From Chloroflexota bacterium (lineage in GTDB: Bacteria; Chloroflexota; Dehalococcoidia; UBA2247; RBG-13-53-26): a stretch of DNA of 64,000 nt. The notes beneath the pieces were generated by a model. The model was not told where the DNA came from. It was given only the letters and a program-made list of their open reading frames with translations, and did not search any database. The stretch spans positions 1-64,000 of the forward strand of contig PUNJ01000037.1 of the NCBI GenBank assembly GCA_003551705.1. Reading direction: 5' to 3'. Below are positions 93-13,584 of this stretch, piece after piece. Every line of letters begins with the position of its first letter. Positions within the stretch are counted from its first letter, which is position 1. The translations under genes were made by a program, and so were the position numbers.

Positions 93-2252
93 TCAAGGGT
101 TTACAAACTCGCTCACCGGTGTCCTCAGATCACCGAAATCAGCATGGTTAACCAGCCTCACGTGGGAACCAGCGACACGACGGTAAACGGTCAGGTAGAG
201 GTCCTCCAGCGTTATGTGTGGTTCCTTCATGGCCCCGATCAACTGCACCGTGAATTCGTCAGCCAGCCATTGCCGGATGCCGATATCATAATTCGTGCCA
301 AAGGATGACTCCATACGTGAAGCGCCGGTCAGGTACAAGACGCCCGGGGTATCGATATCCATGGCCAGGCTTTCACCATAACAGGCCTCCACTATCACCA
401 GCATCTGCCGGAACCTGTCAGCCGAAGACATCTCGTCAATGATCTCCGCCAGGCTCCCGGCGGCGAGCTGGTCTCTGTTGTGAAAGTTGAGCGCCCGCGG
501 CATTCCGTGTCCGGCTATGTATACCAGTACATTGGTCCTTTCGTTGCTGTCCAGTACCACCGGTGTTGCCGGCGACCGGTGCCCCAGCAGGACATTCCTG
601 AAGGTGTCCAGCGTGACCGCATCCCCGGAATAGTCGATAGTGGCGCCCTCTCGAAGGTTGGCGCCTTCAACCTCATGCCGCACATCCCCTTCACGCAGGT
701 TATCCGCCAGCCAGGGGACATCGTCAACGGAAAACAGGATGATGTCCTCATCAGCGACGCCATTTGCCCTCAACATGCCGTACACCGCCAGGGCATCGGC
801 CTGGTGCCGGTAGTCGTCCCAGCCGGCGCTCGTGGACATGATCACCGCCTTCAGGTTATCCCGCTCCCCCGGCTGGAAATCCACCAAGGTCTTTCTCAAG
901 TCAACGTGTGCCAGGCTTGCCCTCGTGCTGGCTACCGACATGTCATCGTCCAGCAGGCCGACCCCTTGCGATTCAATGGAACTGAACCTCCTGACAGTGA
1001 CGAAGTCCATCATGCCATCAATGGTCTCCACGCGATTCAGGGAGTAGAAGCTTACCGTCGGGTCCACCCCGAATTCCCTGTCGAACCTGAGAGGACCGGA
1101 GGCCCCTTCGATATCCGGTAGGTCTCCCTTCAGGATCAGGTCGACCGCCTCAGCATATTCATCCCACCCCAACGTGACCCCCGTTCCGCTTATTACCCTC
1201 TTGAATGATTCCTCCAGCGGCTCCCGCTGGCAGACGAATCGTATTCCATTTCGCGACTCCTGCCGGGCCAGAGCGTACACAGCCAGCAGGAAGGCATCCC
1301 CCGTCGCGGCGGCGTAGTCCCAGGGGTAATACCCGTATTCACTGTAGTAGGCTTCCTCGAAGTCGCTGCCGGGGTCCGCAGCCGGAGAAATCAACTCGAT
1401 ACCCTCCGCCGCGGGGCCAAGCGTCTCTATCAGATATGGGGTCGCTGCCGCGTCCGTCAGGAACAGCCTGGTCCCGGTGTCCCTTTCGTCCAGCAGCCCC
1501 TTGAGCGCCACAGCCTCCACGGAATAGACCGCCGCCAGGACGTACTCCGGAGCGCCGTCCAGCGCTCCTTCCAGAACATCTTCCAGGTCGGATGAACCGT
1601 CCAGACCGATTGCATCCAGCAGGTCGATCCCCAGCTCGGTGCAGAAGAACCCCGTCCATTCCAGGAAGGTCCTGCCATAGCTATAATCGCTGTACACCAG
1701 GGATATCCGGCTTACATCCCGCGTGGCCAGTTCGAACAGTATCGACCTCACCTGGGCGATATCTGACTGGCAGGTCCGCCAGATGAAGTCCCTTTTTCCG
1801 TAAGCCCGCATGATATCTCCCGCTGTCGCCATGGGGCTGATGAGCAGCTTCTTGCTTTCGATGAATAGAGGGGCCACCATATGCATCTCGCTGCTCTTCT
1901 GGGGGCCGATGACGACCCGAATCGTGGGGTCAGAGGTGAACTCCCGTGCAACGGCAATGATATCCTGACCGTAGGTGTCCTTATATACCAGCTCTACAGG
2001 CGTGCCTCCTATGCCCCCGGAGGAATTGAGCCCGGAAAGCATCCAGTCCAGGACCTCCTGCGATTCCAGGGAATCCGGCCCGGACAGAGGCAGCAGGACC
2101 CCGATGCGATGGGTGGTTCCATTAGGGGGCCAGGCGGAGATGCCGGCCAGCGCACCGGCTACAAACGCCAGCAACAGCAGAGGCAAGAGGATTTTCCATG
2201 CCCGGGGCATACGGAATCTTCCGGCTGCTGTCACCTTGCTATGATACGACAA
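93..2252 (-). CDS. Membrane-anchored fusion: N-terminal type I periplasmic ligand-binding domain (Peripla_BP_6/LivJ-like) plus C-terminal legumain-like C13 cysteine peptidase
   Basis: TM/signal segment WKILLPLLLLAFVAGALAG, then IGVLLPLSGP...GPQKSSEMHMVAPLF (LivJ-like). C-terminal part has AVIMSTSAGWDDYRHQADA, DYSGDAVT, NVLVYIAGHGMP and VIVEACYGES, matching legumain landmarks. Listed start is TTG; an ATG at about 2210 directly before the TM segment is an alternative. Confidence 0.9.
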   Translation of the reverse strand: MSYHSKVTAAGRFRMPRAWKILLPLLLLAFVAGALAGISAWPPNGTTHRIGVLLPLSGPDSLESQEVLDWMLSGLNSSGGIGGTPVELVYKDTYGQDIIAVAREFTSDPTIRVVIGPQKSSEMHMVAPLFIESKKLLISPMATAGDIMRAYGKRDFIWRTCQSDIAQVRSILFELATRDVSRISLVYSDYSYGRTFLEWTGFFCTELGIDLLDAIGLDGSSDLEDVLEGALDGAPEYVLAAVYSVEAVALKGLLDERDTGTRLFLTDAAATPYLIETLGPAAEGIELISPAADPGSDFEEAYYSEYGYYPWDYAAATGDAFLLAVYALARQESRNGIRFVCQREPLEESFKRVISGTGVTLGWDEYAEAVDLILKGDLPDIEGASGPLRFDREFGVDPTVSFYSLNRVETIDGMMDFVTVRRFSSIESQGVGLLDDDMSVASTRASLAHVDLRKTLVDFQPGERDNLKAVIMSTSAGWDDYRHQADALAVYGMLRANGVADEDIILFSVDDVPWLADNLREGDVRHEVEGANLREGATIDYSGDAVTLDTFRNVLLGHRSPATPVVLDSNERTNVLVYIAGHGMPRALNFHNRDQLAAGSLAEIIDEMSSADRFRQMLVIVEACYGESLAMDIDTPGVLYLTGASRMESSFGTNYDIGIRQWLADEFTVQLIGAMKEPHITLEDLYLTVYRRVAGSHVRLVNHADFGDLRTPVSEFVNP

Positions 2253-3074: not shown

Positions 3075-6000
3075 TCAAGAGAGGGCTGCTTTCCCATCAT
3101 TGGGGTCCGGTCTCTTTCCCGCCAGCGCCCTATTGACTTCCTTTCTGAGTGAGATTGCATCGAATGGCTTGGTAATATGAGGTACGCCGATCTTTGCCAG
3201 GAAATCTCTGGTATCGGTGCCCATCACATCCCCGGTGATAAAGACTATCTGAGGCATATCCGGGCGTATGTTCCTGATCCTTTCGTGAAGCTCGGCACCA
3301 CCTATATCCGGCAACTTGATATCGAGCATAACAAGGGAGTAAGGGCATTCTTCGAGGCGCATAATAGCTTCCCAGGCTGTGGCTGCTGTATCAACCTTGT
3401 GTCCGTCAATAGCCAGAGCGCGACTCAGGAACTGCAACACAGACGGCTCGTCATCAACCACCAGGACTCTGGCAGGTTCCACCGATTCAGCACCGGCAGG
3501 GTGGGTCTCGATATTATCTACCTCTTCGGCAAGTGAGCAGACTGGCAGTTCTACGACGAAAGTCGTTCCTTTGCCTGGTTGACTGTCCGCATAGATCCTG
3601 CCGCTGTGTTGTGTCACTATGGTGTGGCAGATGCTCAGGCCGAGACCGGTGCCCTGGCCAACCTCCCTTGTTGTGAAAAATGGGTCGAAAATCCGGTACA
3701 GGTTTTCCTGGGGAATACCCGGCCCATCATCCTCTACGGTGACCTTGATCATGCCTTTCTTGCATCCGGTCTTGATTGAGAGGCGTCCCTTGCCATGAGC
3801 GAGCTTCATCTCCGTTTCAGCGTTAATCAGGATGTTTAGAAACAGTTGCTGTAGCTGGCTGCTATCGGCCATGGTGCTCGGAAGATCGGGAGCCAGATGT
3901 TTCTCGACTTCTATCTTGTTGGTTTCCATTTCGTAGGCACGCAGATTCAGGTTTGTCTTAATGATGTCATTGATGTCTACCTGACGACGTTCGGGCTTCT
4001 GTTGCCTGGCGAAAGTCAGCAGACCTCTGACAATGCCGGCCACCCTTTGCGCACTCTCATTGATAATTTCAACCTCGGTACGAACATCATCCGGGAGTTC
4101 TCGCTGCATCAGCAATTGGGTAAACCCTACTACTCCCGTCAGAGGATTATTGATCTCGTGAGCGATGCCAGCTGCCATCATGCCTACGGTAGCAAGCCTG
4201 CTGGCAAGATGTGCTTTCTGCTCAAGTTCCTTTCGTTCAGCTTCTGATCGTTTGCGCTCTGTGATGTCCTGTAGCTGTACAAGATAGCCCTTCAGGGGCC
4301 CGCCTTCATGCAAGGTTAGTGGCGTTATCAGGGCATCTATATATAACCCCGTAGCCCGATCTTCCGTCCCGGTAATCCGCCTGCTCTCAATGATCAGTTC
4401 CGACCTGGCTATCTCGCCTCGTTGAAGCTTGTTCTTGACCTGTTGCGGGATATTCGGGTCTTCAAAGAGTCCGTACCACTTGCCCAGGACTACACCGTCT
4501 TCTGCTTCCGAGAGGCCGAACATGCTGAAACAAGCCTTATTGGCGCCTATGAGCTTGCCTCGGGCATCTCGTATCTGAATCCCTATGGGAGACTCCGCAT
4601 AGATGCTCCGAAACCATCGCTCCTGTTCCTCCAAGGCCTTTTCCGTGTGCTTGAGTTCGGTTACGTCCATGAAGTTTCCAAGGGTGGCTCTTCTGCCCTG
4701 GTATAGGATGGAGGTGACCGTTTCCATCACCCATTTGACCTTGCCGCTCTTAGTGACATATCGAAATTCGTACGGTGCGGCTCTCTTGCCCTTCAGCATT
4801 CTGACGGCGTTTTTCTTGACCAGAGTTCGATCATCGGGGTAGACAACGCTCATGGACTCCATGCCGATAAGAGAACCATGGCGATAGCCCAGTAGTCTTT
4901 CGAAACTCGCGTTGATGAAACGGAACTTGCCATCCTGCAAGATGTAAAGGCCTATTGGTGAACTGGTGAAGGCTGTGCTCAAGAGACCCTCTGCTTGTTT
5001 TCGCTGGGTTATGTCCCGAGCTACGCCCACCATGCCCGCAGTCCGGCCTTCGCTGTCGCGCAAGAACGATACCCGGACCTCTGCCCAGACGGTGTGTCCG
5101 TCTTTGTGGTTCATTTCCAACTCAATGATCCGGCCCTTGAGATGCCCTGGATAGTTGGCGAGATCCGTGCCAGCAAGGCCTGCCCGAGCCATCTGGACAG
5201 AGGCAGGGGTCAGGCTCTCTTCCATGGTGCGGTCCATGGCTTCTTCAACGCTGTAGCCGAGAAGCCGTGTAATGGATGGACTCAGGTAAGTGGGGCGCAG
5301 GGTTTCCAAATCAATCACCCATAGTACGTCGCCAACATTATCAGCCAGCAAGCGGTATCGTCTCTCGCTTTCCTGCAGGGCCTCCTCAGCTTTCTTGAGT
5401 TCATGCACATCGATGAGGTTGCCGAGTGCAGCTCTTCTGCCCTGATACACTATTGACGTTACCGTTCCCATAGCCCACCTGAAGGAACCGTCCGCGGTCA
5501 GGTACCTGAATTCGTACGGCGACGATGCTTGGCCTTTCAGCATGCTTATCGCCGCATCCCTGACCCCCTTCCTGTCGCTTGCCATCACGAATCTGGTCGG
5601 GTCCTTGCCCAGCAATTCATGTTGTCTCAGACCCAGAAACCTCTCCAGGCTGGAATTGACGGCGCGCAATTTACCGTCTTGGACTATATACATGCCTATG
5701 GGAGAACTCAGAAATGACGTTCTTAGAAGCTCTTCAGCCTGGTGTCTCTCGGTGACATCGCGTACCAGACCCAATATGGCCGGTCGGTCATCGTAGTTAA
5801 TCAGGCCAGCGGAGACCTCAACCTCCTTAATGCTCTCATCTTTGCACAGTAACTGTGTTTCGAAGACAGGCGGCACCCTCTGTCCCGACATCCTTGTCTC
5901 GTAAAGCGTGGCTATCAGTTCTCTGCTGTCAGGGGCCACGAGTCCTGTAAAATTAGCGAGGCCGGTGATCTCTTCCGTTGAATAGCCTGAAATTTGAGCA

Positions 6001-6854
6001 AAAGCATTGTTTACAAACCTGTAGACCCCGTCCTGCACTATCAACAGACCGTCCCTGGCTTGTTCGACCAATGCCGCGTAATTGGCCTCCGATTTCCTAA
6101 GTTCTTCCTCTGTCCTCTTTCTGGCCCGGATCTCATTCCTTAGTTCACGATTGAGCTCTTTGAGCTGGGCCGTGCGGGTCTCGATTGTCTTCTCCATATT
6201 CGTTTGAACAGCACGTAGAGCTTCTTCGGCCTGGCGACGTTGAAGAGCTACAGCGGCTTGGCTCATGAATACTTCTACCATGCCTTTGTTCATGAGTTCC
6301 GTGCCCTTCTTCGTAAGAACGAATGCGCTTCCGAACACGCTGCCGTTGCAGGCGAATCCCATGGCGTACGTATTTCCTAGCTGCAATACGCTTTCCATCT
6401 CCATGCACGTCTGCTGAGGCAGGCTGCCCGAAAAAAGCTGAAACAGACCGCCCGGCAAGTGTTCGACCCGGCCGCTGCTCAGCCCTGAACGTGCTTCGTC
6501 GCAGATAGGGACGCTTAGTCCCAGCGGTTCCCTGCCCAAGATGGTCCTGAGCGTGTCTGAATGCTGATCAACGCCCAGCAGTCCCTGAAGGCAGAAGGAT
6601 TGACTGGTTTCGCTAAACGAAGAAACACCCACTATGTATCCTCCGGATACATCTTTGAGCCGTTGGGTGATAAATTGGTAGATATTACTGGTAGGGGGCA
6701 ACTGCACAAAATCTACGGCTATCTGAGCCAGAATGGCCAGGTCTTCCTGCGTTCCTGCTACGCATAATTCTAGGTCGGCAATACGCTGTTTCAGGGCCTC
6801 GTATTCAGATGACGCCTGATCCATTTCATCCTTTACCAGTCTCCTCTTTTCCAT
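3075..6854 (-). CDS. Hybrid sensor histidine kinase: GAF-like N-terminus, five PAS domains, HisKA, HATPase_c, C-terminal REC
   Basis: Repeated PAS/PAC blocks ([25 protein letters not shown]), H-box [17 protein letters not shown] boxes [10 protein letters not shown] and DDGPGIPQE...GTGLGLSI, terminal [16 protein letters not shown]...VMLDIKLPD...ITKPFD. Confidence 0.95.
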
Positions 6855-8869: not shown

Positions 8870-9189
8870 ATCTCCCCCCGTTTGGGCGTCCCGAGCATAC
8901 TCAAGGCCTGGACGCTGACCACATTATATCGGATATCCGCAAGGGCCGCAAAAAGGGGAAACAGACCGGCAGGCCAGTCCTCCTCCATACTCGCCCATGG
9001 TTGACAGCAGTGACAGGCTGGTACTATGATTTTGGTAGCATTCGTATGCGAGTCTCGATGCGGTCGAGAAAGGGCCTTCCAGGCTGCATTGGTCGGAATA
9101 ATGTCCCCAGGGCTACCTAGGCGGATCCCACTCACGTCCAACGCTTGTAGCGTTCTGGGATAGCTTTGGCACCGGTTAAAGGAGGTCAT

Positions 9190-10668
9190 ATGGCACCCAA
9201 GTATGATGCGATAATCATCGGGGCGGGGTACGGGGGCATCGTGTGCGGAGCACTGCTCTCGAAATGGGGCGTGAAGGTCCTCGTTTTGGACAAGAACAAC
9301 CGGCCCGGCGGGAAGCAAATGCCATTCACCAAGAACGGTTTCAAGGGCGAGTGGTGGCCCACCTTCGGCATACCCCTGGAGCGAGGACCCTTCGTTGAAG
9401 CCTTTGCGGAGCTGGGGATCGAGTCCAATCTCAAGCTCATGCCAGGTTCTGCAGCCCTCATGTATAGACGACCCAGCGGGAAATGGGTTACCGCCGTCGA
9501 TTCACCCAAGTCCGAGATCGCCGACCCGACCGAAAACATGTTCAATGCCTGGCAGTTGAACGCAGAGGAACGCCAGACATCACTGCAAATCCTGGCCGAA
9601 CTGGCGCTGATGTCACCTCAGGAACTGGATCCGCTCGATGACGTGCCCATCAAGGACTGGGTCGACAGTCACACTAACGTTCCCCCAGCTCTTCGCGGCT
9701 TCTTCGCTGTTCACGCCAACCTCATGGCCACCAACCTGTATGAACTTGTAGCGGCATCTGAAATGGCCAGAATAATGCAGATTTTCGCAGGGACCACCAA
9801 GAGCTATCCCAAGGGTGGTTACGGGCGGCTGATTATGGACCTGGTCAATTTCATCAAAGCGCATGGCGGCGATGTACAACTGCGGAGTCGAGTTGAACGC
9901 ATCCTTGTCGAGGGTGGAAGAGCAGCAGGTGTAACTTGCAATGGCAAGGTTTTCAAAGCCCCCATCATTGTCAGCAATGCTGGAGTCCAGCCCACTGTCC
10001 TCAAGCTGCTGGGCGAAGAATACTTTGATAAGTTCTACGTGAATTATGTTAAGGAAATAGTGCCCAGCCTAGGTTTCACCTGTCAGAGATATGTCATGAG
10101 CAAGCCTGTACTGGAGCACGGGGTGTATATAGCCACTTCTGAGGACAGCTACATCGATGCCGCACGCCTCGACGATATGCATGCCGGCAAGTTCCCCGAT
10201 GTCATTTCGGTCTATGGCACCGTGCCTGCTCACTTCGATCCTGAAATGGCGCCTCCAGGCAAGCAGATGCTGCTCATAGGTACCTGGTGTTCTCCGGATC
10301 CTGCAGCCAGGGAGATCCGCGCACTGCAGAAGAAGGTGGATGAACAATTTGAGGAAATGCTTCCCGATGCTGCCCGGTTCGTGGAGACCAGGGAGGGTTA
10401 CGTGGGTCCGGCCCATGTAGCGGCCATGAGCAGGGACCAGGTATTACCCGGGCTAGGCGGGGAAGCGGTAGGCCTTGCCGTGACAGTAGGATACTGCGGT
10501 AAGAACAAGCCCAAGGCCAGGTCCCCGCTGCCCGGACTCTTTTTTGTCGGGCATGACGCAGGTGGTAGCGCTCTGGTTGGTACTCATCAGGCGGTCAGTT
10601 CGGGCATGAGAGTGGCACACCTGGTACGGAATTATTACTTCGAGCGAAAACTGGTTGAAAGGCTCTAG
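9190..10668 (+). CDS. NAD(P)/FAD-dependent oxidoreductase, phytoene desaturase-like
   Basis: YDAIIIGAGYGGIVCGALLSKWGVKVLVLDKNNRPGGK dinucleotide-binding motif; C-terminal GLFFVGHDAGGSALVGTHQAVSSG; SD ggagg before ATG. Confidence 0.9.
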   Translation: MAPKYDAIIIGAGYGGIVCGALLSKWGVKVLVLDKNNRPGGKQMPFTKNGFKGEWWPTFGIPLERGPFVEAFAELGIESNLKLMPGSAALMYRRPSGKWVTAVDSPKSEIADPTENMFNAWQLNAEERQTSLQILAELALMSPQELDPLDDVPIKDWVDSHTNVPPALRGFFAVHANLMATNLYELVAASEMARIMQIFAGTTKSYPKGGYGRLIMDLVNFIKAHGGDVQLRSRVERILVEGGRAAGVTCNGKVFKAPIIVSNAGVQPTVLKLLGEEYFDKFYVNYVKEIVPSLGFTCQRYVMSKPVLEHGVYIATSEDSYIDAARLDDMHAGKFPDVISVYGTVPAHFDPEMAPPGKQMLLIGTWCSPDPAAREIRALQKKVDEQFEEMLPDAARFVETREGYVGPAHVAAMSRDQVLPGLGGEAVGLAVTVGYCGKNKPKARSPLPGLFFVGHDAGGSALVGTHQAVSSGMRVAHLVRNYYFERKLVERL

Positions 10669-12336: not shown

Positions 12337-13584
12337 ATGCCCCGAAGAGCTGCCAAGGTCATTGGCCTGATATTTATGGCCCTGACTCTAGTTGCGCTAC
12401 CTGTTGTGGTGGGATGTGGGGACGATGCTGATGCCGACGCCCGGGTGACCATCGGCTTCCTGGGAGACTTTACCGGACCCGGTGCCGAGACTTGCATTCG
12501 CGTTGATAAGGGTATGCGAGACTTTCTGCGACATGCGAAAGAGCATGACCCTATTCCTGGCGTTGACCTAAGGGTGATCACTTACGATAGCCGTCTCGAA
12601 TATTCCAGGGTTGTGCCTGGATATCTATGGCTGAAGGGCCAAGGTTCGGACATTATTCTCAATTTCAACGCAATGTATACCCCGATGTTGGTGGACAATC
12701 ACCAAAGGGACGGTCTCGCGTCTTTCTGTTTCAACGCCATGCAAAGTACCATGGGTGAAGACTACATGTACAGCTTCAGTGTTGACTACATAACTGAAGG
12801 TGAGGCATCCATAGAATGGTTGGTACGGGACTGGGAAGAAAACGGAGAAGACCGGCCCATGAAATTGGGCTACGTGGGTTTAAGGGGTATGGTTTCTGAT
12901 ACGGAAATTGGAAACGTTATGAAGAACCTTGCAGAGACCACCTACAAAGGGCAGGTGGAATTCAACTGGCAGTCCGCCCCCTTGGGGACCACAACCTGGT
13001 CCAACGAGATCAACAGACTGCGAGGCTCCGATGTCATCTTTCTTAACCTGGTCGGGCCTTCGCTGGCGAGCTTCCTGAATGAAGCCGTGGCCAGGGGATA
13101 TGAAGGAGGATACCTCGGTAGCACCATATCGCTGATGGGCTTCTGGAGCTTGGTCAGGGGATCTGTGCCGCTGGACAAGATCGATGGAATCAGGGCCATT
13201 CACGCTCAGATGCTGTGGACTGACGGCACGGAGTTTATGGATGATGTGGAACATTGTCTGCAAACTTACCGGGCCCCTGCTGAGGCAGCAAATTTGAAGA
13301 TGTGTACAAGCTATCCTTCGGGCTATCTATTTGCCTGGATGCTATATGAGACCGTCAAACTTGCAGCAGATAAGGTCGGGCCGGAAAATGTGGACAGCGA
13401 GGCCCTGAACCAGGCTCTGCAAGAGCTTGAGATGGATGTGGACGGCTGGGGCGAACCTTGGAAGGCATGCGAAGATACTAACGTCATGCACAGGACTTAC
13501 CGTATAATTGAATACGTGCACGATCAAGATGACTGGTTTGAAGTAGACGGCGGCGGCTGGTTCCTACCCGAAAACTTCAAGTAG
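12337..13584 (+). CDS. ABC-type branched-chain amino-acid-like substrate-binding lipoprotein (orphan)
   Basis: Lipobox-like ALPVVVGC; VTIGFLGDFTGPGAETCIRVDKGMRDF; NLVGPSLASFLNEAVARGYEGGYLG. No permease or ATPase gene nearby. Confidence 0.88.
   Translation: MPRRAAKVIGLIFMALTLVALPVVVGCGDDADADARVTIGFLGDFTGPGAETCIRVDKGMRDFLRHAKEHDPIPGVDLRVITYDSRLEYSRVVPGYLWLKGQGSDIILNFNAMYTPMLVDNHQRDGLASFCFNAMQSTMGEDYMYSFSVDYITEGEASIEWLVRDWEENGEDRPMKLGYVGLRGMVSDTEIGNVMKNLAETTYKGQVEFNWQSAPLGTTTWSNEINRLRGSDVIFLNLVGPSLASFLNEAVARGYEGGYLGSTISLMGFWSLVRGSVPLDKIDGIRAIHAQMLWTDGTEFMDDVEHCLQTYRAPAEAANLKMCTSYPSGYLFAWMLYETVKLAADKVGPENVDSEALNQALQELEMDVDGWGEPWKACEDTNVMHRTYRIIEYVHDQDDWFEVDGGGWFLPENFK

Follow-up and report, generated by a model that had tools for sequence, protein, structure and literature searches.

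To our knowledge, research on legumain-type enzymes (asparaginyl endopeptidases, MEROPS family C13) has dealt almost wholly with eukaryotes. The Asn/Asp pocket of legumain consists of R44, H45, S216 and D231 (PMC4357240). Among bacteria, surface-lipoprotein proteases of another clan CD family, C11, activate CDCL pore-forming toxins (PMC11169675), and a C11 surface protease activates the bacteriocin protoxin Fab1 (PMC8406203); C11 proteases are the sole activators of such pore-formers named in these papers. These activating C11 enzymes of Bacteroidales, fragipain and DpnB, are Arg/Lys-specific, and no sensor domain is described for them in the cited papers. The fusion protein analysed here shares with them the trait of a clan CD protease carried as a surface lipoprotein, but belongs to family C13, bears a sensor and is encoded in some lineages beside MACPF genes.

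Both domains of this protein, an exported LivJ-type binding domain and a legumain domain, are of known kinds. An earlier reading made from the DNA letters (hereafter the sequence-only reading) knew of no described system with this architecture, and none was found in open-access full text, most subscription journals lying outside the search; in the same literature, no description of the pairing, of its partner gene or of the MACPF clusters seems to exist. Beyond that reading, we found that the protein belongs to a family spread over several phyla, that a PnrA/BMP-like gene is its conserved partner, and that MACPF genes join it in some lineages. The fusion seems to be a genuine cell-surface protease system that has apparently not been described before, and we hold with moderate confidence that it is an envelope-anchored, ligand-sensing protease of the Asn/Asp type that would process neighbouring surface proteins.

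Architecture and active site of the fusion protein

The fusion gene occupies positions 93-2252 of the window (the whole 64,000-nucleotide stretch of DNA that was analysed) on the reverse strand, with its stop codon at 93-95; it lies 93 bp from the contig end and is flanked on the other side by upstream genes of the same strand. The uninterrupted reading frame has 719 codons from a TTG start, but an ATG at 2208-2210 with GGAAG before it is a likelier start and would give 705 residues. As the sequence-only reading had proposed, a single ORF carries a TM/signal helix, a LivJ-like domain and a C13 region, and it contains all four peptide blocks quoted there. The N-terminal hydrophobic helix (residues 17-39, positions 2136-2204, reverse strand like all features of the gene), a signal or anchor without a lipobox Cys, is followed by a LivJ-like type I periplasmic-binding domain (residues 49-332, positions 1257-2108; Peripla_BP_6, PF13458, 6.6e-21), the fold of which extends by secondary structure to about residue 424, past the Pfam span. 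The legumain domain (residues 469-702, positions 147-848; Peptidase_C13, PF01650, 5.2e-47) covers model positions 3-243 of 258, and a conserved tail behind it reaches the C-terminus. Sequence matches in the PDB include human legumain (2.8e-26) and the extracellular ligand-binding receptor 4mlc (about 1e-15 to 2e-15), and we estimate both domain assignments to be far beyond chance.

An AlphaFold2 model built from a 17-sequence alignment had a mean pLDDT of 85.9 and a pTM of 0.83. In Foldseek searches its C13 half matched human legumain (7fqh) with a TM-score of 0.91 (by target), and its sensor half, a two-lobe fold, matched LivK TM1135 (3td9) with a TM-score of 0.79. These computations show a protein with a predicted membrane anchor, composed of a LivJ-type sensor and a C13 protease with a clan CD fold, in agreement with the fold expected by the sequence-only reading. 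The protease resembles legumain in fold, His/Cys dyad, S1 pocket residues and the conservation of its C-terminal end, but differs from the animal and plant enzymes in lacking a C-terminal activation peptide/LSAM prodomain, the ORF stopping at the end of the protease domain, and in possessing an N-terminal sensor domain and an envelope anchor.

Residue conservation was counted in 17 aligned family members, comprising the window copy and 16 relatives. The catalytic His582 (legumain H148; CAC, codon 507-509) and Cys624 (legumain C189; TGT, codon 381-383) are invariant in all 17; the sequence-only reading had placed the dyad at exactly these codons, 42 residues apart, and had rightly likened this spacing to that of human legumain (41 residues between H148 and C189). 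Equally invariant are Arg482 (codon 807-809), equivalent to R44 of the legumain S1 pocket, Glu622 (legumain E187) and Ser650 (legumain S216), and the column of Asp665 (legumain D231) holds 11 Asp, five Asn and one gap. The zwitterionic S1 pocket R44/H45/S216/D231 is present in the window copy as R482, H483, S650 and D665, from which we infer an Asn/Asp-specific cysteine protease that would cleave after Asn or Asp in neighbouring cell-surface or extracellular proteins.

The same fold and membrane anchoring are found in the GPI transamidase GPI8/PIG-K, which acts within a multi-subunit eukaryotic complex. A transamidase or peptide ligase of this kind would join surface proteins to an anchor rather than hydrolyse them, and would be consistent with matches to plant peptide ligases and to subunit K of the GPI transamidase that are nearly as good as those to legumain. 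The top structural match, however, is the endopeptidase legumain, and among the neighbouring genes none stood out as coding for a partner subunit or an acceptor; we regard this alternative as quite improbable.

A feature beyond the sequence-only reading is Asp480 (codon 813-815), at the position of legumain Asn42: the residue is Asn in all 16 relatives, and the window copy alone among the 17 has Asp in place of the Asn expected of an orthologue of the animal and plant legumains. We take Asn42 to be a supporting residue and not a defining trait of family C13. The unique Asp480 might mark the window copy as a catalytically impaired member acting solely as a receptor or decoy; yet the catalytic dyad is intact, as is the S1 pocket, no stop or frameshift is seen in the frame, and we consider impairment unlikely.

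Distribution and history of the fusion

The single protein, used as a query against the species genome collection, gave no match. A query with the C13 alignment across about 85,000 species genomes retrieved 15 relatives, from Patescibacteria, Bacteroidota including Prevotella, Fibrobacterota, Spirochaetota (Treponema) and Myxococcota, and from one further MAG that turned up in the phylum draw of the Myxococcota; in all 15 ORFs the binding domain stands ahead of C13. The pairing was then tested outside this model-building set, on C13 genes found only through PF01650 in whole genomes. There, 18 of 19 strong C13 genes carry the binding domain (E 1e-48 to 1e-92), the remaining one (L077) ending at a contig end and hence being undecidable, and six more, all fused, came from 266 newly drawn Bacteroidales genomes. 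Outside the model-building set, all 24 decidable strong bacterial C13 genes thus have the sensor ahead of the protease, and with that set included the fusion spans at least six bacterial phyla. The pairing looks obligate, and the presence of an extracellular small-molecule-binding domain on the strong bacterial C13 members examined suggests receptor-controlled proteolysis outside the cell.

This distribution also bears on the possibility that assembly or a frameshift united two separate genes, a concern raised by the proximity of the gene to the contig end. The same fusion recurs in dozens of unrelated assemblies from six phyla, and the C-terminus aligns with the relatives through to its end; the artefact is refuted by these fused relatives, its probability being negligible, and the conservation of the fusion that the sequence-only reading had proposed to look for is borne out in many genomes.

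The only partial case (L023) comes from genome G162 of the window's own class, with sensor lobe 2 only, and represents either a truncation or a sensor-less variant. This gene without the first sensor lobe (L121:8963-10489) lies directly behind an aminotransferase class IV gene. Weak PF01650 matches (20-40 bits) in the window's class and other phyla were left out of the counts; they lack the sensor domain and have partial spans, mostly positions 100-240 or so, which suggests that they may be other caspase-like proteins.

Strong C13 genes were found in two of 393 genomes of the window's class. In the C13-domain tree, the window protein is sister to a Patescibacteria protein (support 100/99), and the G162 copy falls beside a sequence from the Myxococcota draw, with support (86/77) that is not strong. 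This patchy presence, together with the discordant tree placement, suggests that the fusion gene may have spread by horizontal transfer. No fusion match was found in phage, plasmid and viral collections, and the PADLOC anti-phage defence models matched neither the fusion nor a MACPF neighbour.

Predicted envelope location and ligand site

A lipobox is present in nearly all Gram-negative fusion copies and their cluster partners, and acidic residues often come next to its Cys (e.g., CSDDD, CKTEDD). Such ends resemble the signal by which surface lipoproteins are exported in Bacteroidales (PMC12853789), and the Gram-negative fusion copies are probably surface-exposed. In contrast to most of these relatives, the window protein lacks the lipobox Cys, as does that of L046; both keep the hydrophobic helix, as expected for single-membrane cells. 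The predicted topology is one of export, with the anchored protein facing outward, and the fusion would be TM-anchored in the window's probably single-membrane lineage and a lipoprotein in most Gram-negative relatives.

The sensor was aligned with E. coli LivJ and LivK from the K-12 genome. S79, T102 and E226 of LivJ, which we take to be its contacts with the amino-acid ligand, align with S120, T143 and D267 of the window protein. Thr143 (codon 1824-1826) is Thr in 16 of 16 rows with letters at that position, and the S120 column is Ser or Thr in 16 of 16 such rows; the D267 column has Asp in 8 of 17 members, with Pro in the Prevotella group and Ser in Fibrobacter. Because the three contacts are kept, an amino-acid-type ligand is likely for the window copy, and because the D267 equivalent varies, ligands probably differ among the relatives, an amino-acid-type ligand being less sure for the Prevotella group. 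The small ligand of the LivJ-like domain would accordingly most likely be an amino acid or a compound derived from one, and closing of the sensor may alter how accessible the fused legumain domain is or how it is oriented; we put forward this gating, which the sequence-only reading had also suggested, with less confidence than the ligand class.

The partial conservation of the ligand residues would also be consistent with a targeting or exosite module without gating, in which the binding domain holds peptides, glycans or a partner near a constitutively active legumain domain. PBP folds serve as docking modules, and throughout the whole-genome C13 set the domain is N-terminal, between anchor and protease. 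Two contacts of the amino-acid site, one Ser/Thr and one Thr, are each kept in 16 of 16; this and the co-encoded PnrA/BMP-like protein, which suggests sensing, argue against this alternative, and we regard it as possible but doubtful.

The sensor shares its fold and some amino-acid contact residues with LivJ/LivK-type substrate-binding proteins, but is covalently tied to a protease and lacks flanking ABC transporter genes. Since both sensor-type domains derive from substrate-binding-protein families, the system might instead scavenge nutrients, the protease freeing amino acids or peptides that the binding domain passes to an ABC importer. This is rather improbable: the neighbour survey found no recurrent permease or ATPase genes beside the fusions, the window fusion adjoining a kinase and a regulator instead, the binding protein is covalently bound to the protease, and its partners in the cluster are lipoproteins, MACPF proteins among them. 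We retain the ligand-sensing protease as our working reading; a ligand-switchable Asn-specific protease or ligase, if real, would be a useful tool.

Partner gene and neighbouring surface proteins

Upstream of the window fusion, on the same strand, are a response-regulator receiver gene (2556-2951; PF00072, 6e-24), separated from it by a 303-nt gap, and a gene for a hybrid multi-PAS histidine kinase of 1259 residues (3075-6854); co-regulation of the fusion with both is possible. Promoter and terminator scans gave nothing clearly exceeding shuffled sequence, and an Rfam scan of the window gave no match. About 10 kb from the fusion, the window also encodes a separate LivJ-like binding lipoprotein with a lipobox (12337-13584, forward strand; PF13458, 7e-16), near an amine-oxidase-type gene (9166-10668). 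As the window fusion lies next to a contig end in a genome without PF02608 (PnrA/BMP) or MACPF matches, the evidence on operons comes from the relatives.

In 17 distinct loci of the first set, the fusion is immediately preceded by a lipoprotein gene of about 330-390 codons; L053 and a portion of L123 are one locus and count once. These loci belong to Bacteroidota, Fibrobacterota, Spirochaetota and one genome of the Myxococcota draw (L112), and the two genes mostly overlap by 4 to about 100 nt, with one pair 13 nt apart. The fresh Bacteroidales draw had the partner in five of six fusion loci, bringing the total to 22 distinct loci. Single sequences matched PF02608 in 8 of 14 partner members, and a profile of the members retrieved the TmpC, BmpD and BmpA structures. 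By sequence, the partner thus probably belongs to the PnrA/TmpC/BMP lipoproteins, from the known members of which it differs in being encoded as an overlapping pair with a sensor-legumain gene. It may act as a second sensor or co-receptor.

In one Treponema (G742) and two Bacteroidales genomes (G743, G745), all nine whole-genome MACPF matches are on the fusion contigs within about 10 kb of the fusion, mostly in one same-strand run. Since this clustering had been noticed before it could be tested, it was checked on an independent draw, where two of four new fusion-bearing Bacteroidales genomes (G1421, G1476) have MACPF genes, all five of them inside the fusion cluster, where the genes run MACPF, BMP partner, fusion; in L162 a single 416-aa gene is interposed. 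The chance of both independent clusters lying within 10 kb is about 1e-4. One of 36 genomes without strong C13 has a MACPF match (Fisher p = 0.02), and in these five fusion-bearing genomes from Bacteroidales and Treponema every MACPF gene found sits in a fusion cluster. MACPF is absent, however, from 8 of the 12 genomes searched in the first set (the window's aside), and the match in G739 lies elsewhere; Fibrobacter, most Myxococcota, Prevotella G744 and G746 and Patescibacteria have none. With so many fusion-bearing genomes lacking it, MACPF cannot be a universal client, and other fusion clusters contain BspA-type leucine-rich-repeat proteins or families without a Pfam match.

The MACPF neighbours share with the BSAP-type toxins of Bacteroidales the MACPF domain and a lipoprotein signal with acidic residues after the Cys, but C13 partners go unmentioned in the available excerpts of the BSAP literature. 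The activation of CDCL toxins and Fab1 by C11 lipoproteases makes it plausible, by analogy, that the C13 fusion processes MACPF proteins. Likely clients in Bacteroidales and Treponema would be surface lipoproteins of the protease's own cluster, including MACPF pore-formers, an assignment weaker than that of the ligand class. The MACPF genes of these rumen- and gut-type bacteria provide a directly testable client and tie a C13 protease to bacterial pore-formers. More tentatively, two binding-protein-type sensors, one of them fused to legumain, might govern whether co-encoded surface proteins, in some lineages MACPF pore-formers, are activated or set free by proteolysis; bacteria would then have a ligand-controlled counterpart of the pore-forming cascades that proteases trigger. 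This is possible, and we hold it clearly less firmly than the ligand-sensing protease itself.

Four clusters (L122, L124, L159, L162) have tandem MACPF lipoprotein genes, three or more per cluster, and in L159 two MACPF proteins carry a C-terminal Fib_succ_major domain; this may point to a repertoire of pore-formers with different targets. For a 757-aa neighbour of the fusion in a Myxococcota MAG (L055), a MACPF fold was suspected but dropped, its only Pfam matches being to C-type lectin and, weakly, to GON. The fusion of this MAG comes after two long genes (L055:2-4768) that match C-type lectin and GON-type families, the last of them overlapping the fusion start. A recurrent lipoprotein family of about 560-610 aa with no Pfam match (cluster 8; L122:543-2225, L125:15860-19438, L123:230-1777), possibly a partner or immunity protein, adjoins MACPF genes in both Bacteroidales and Treponema.
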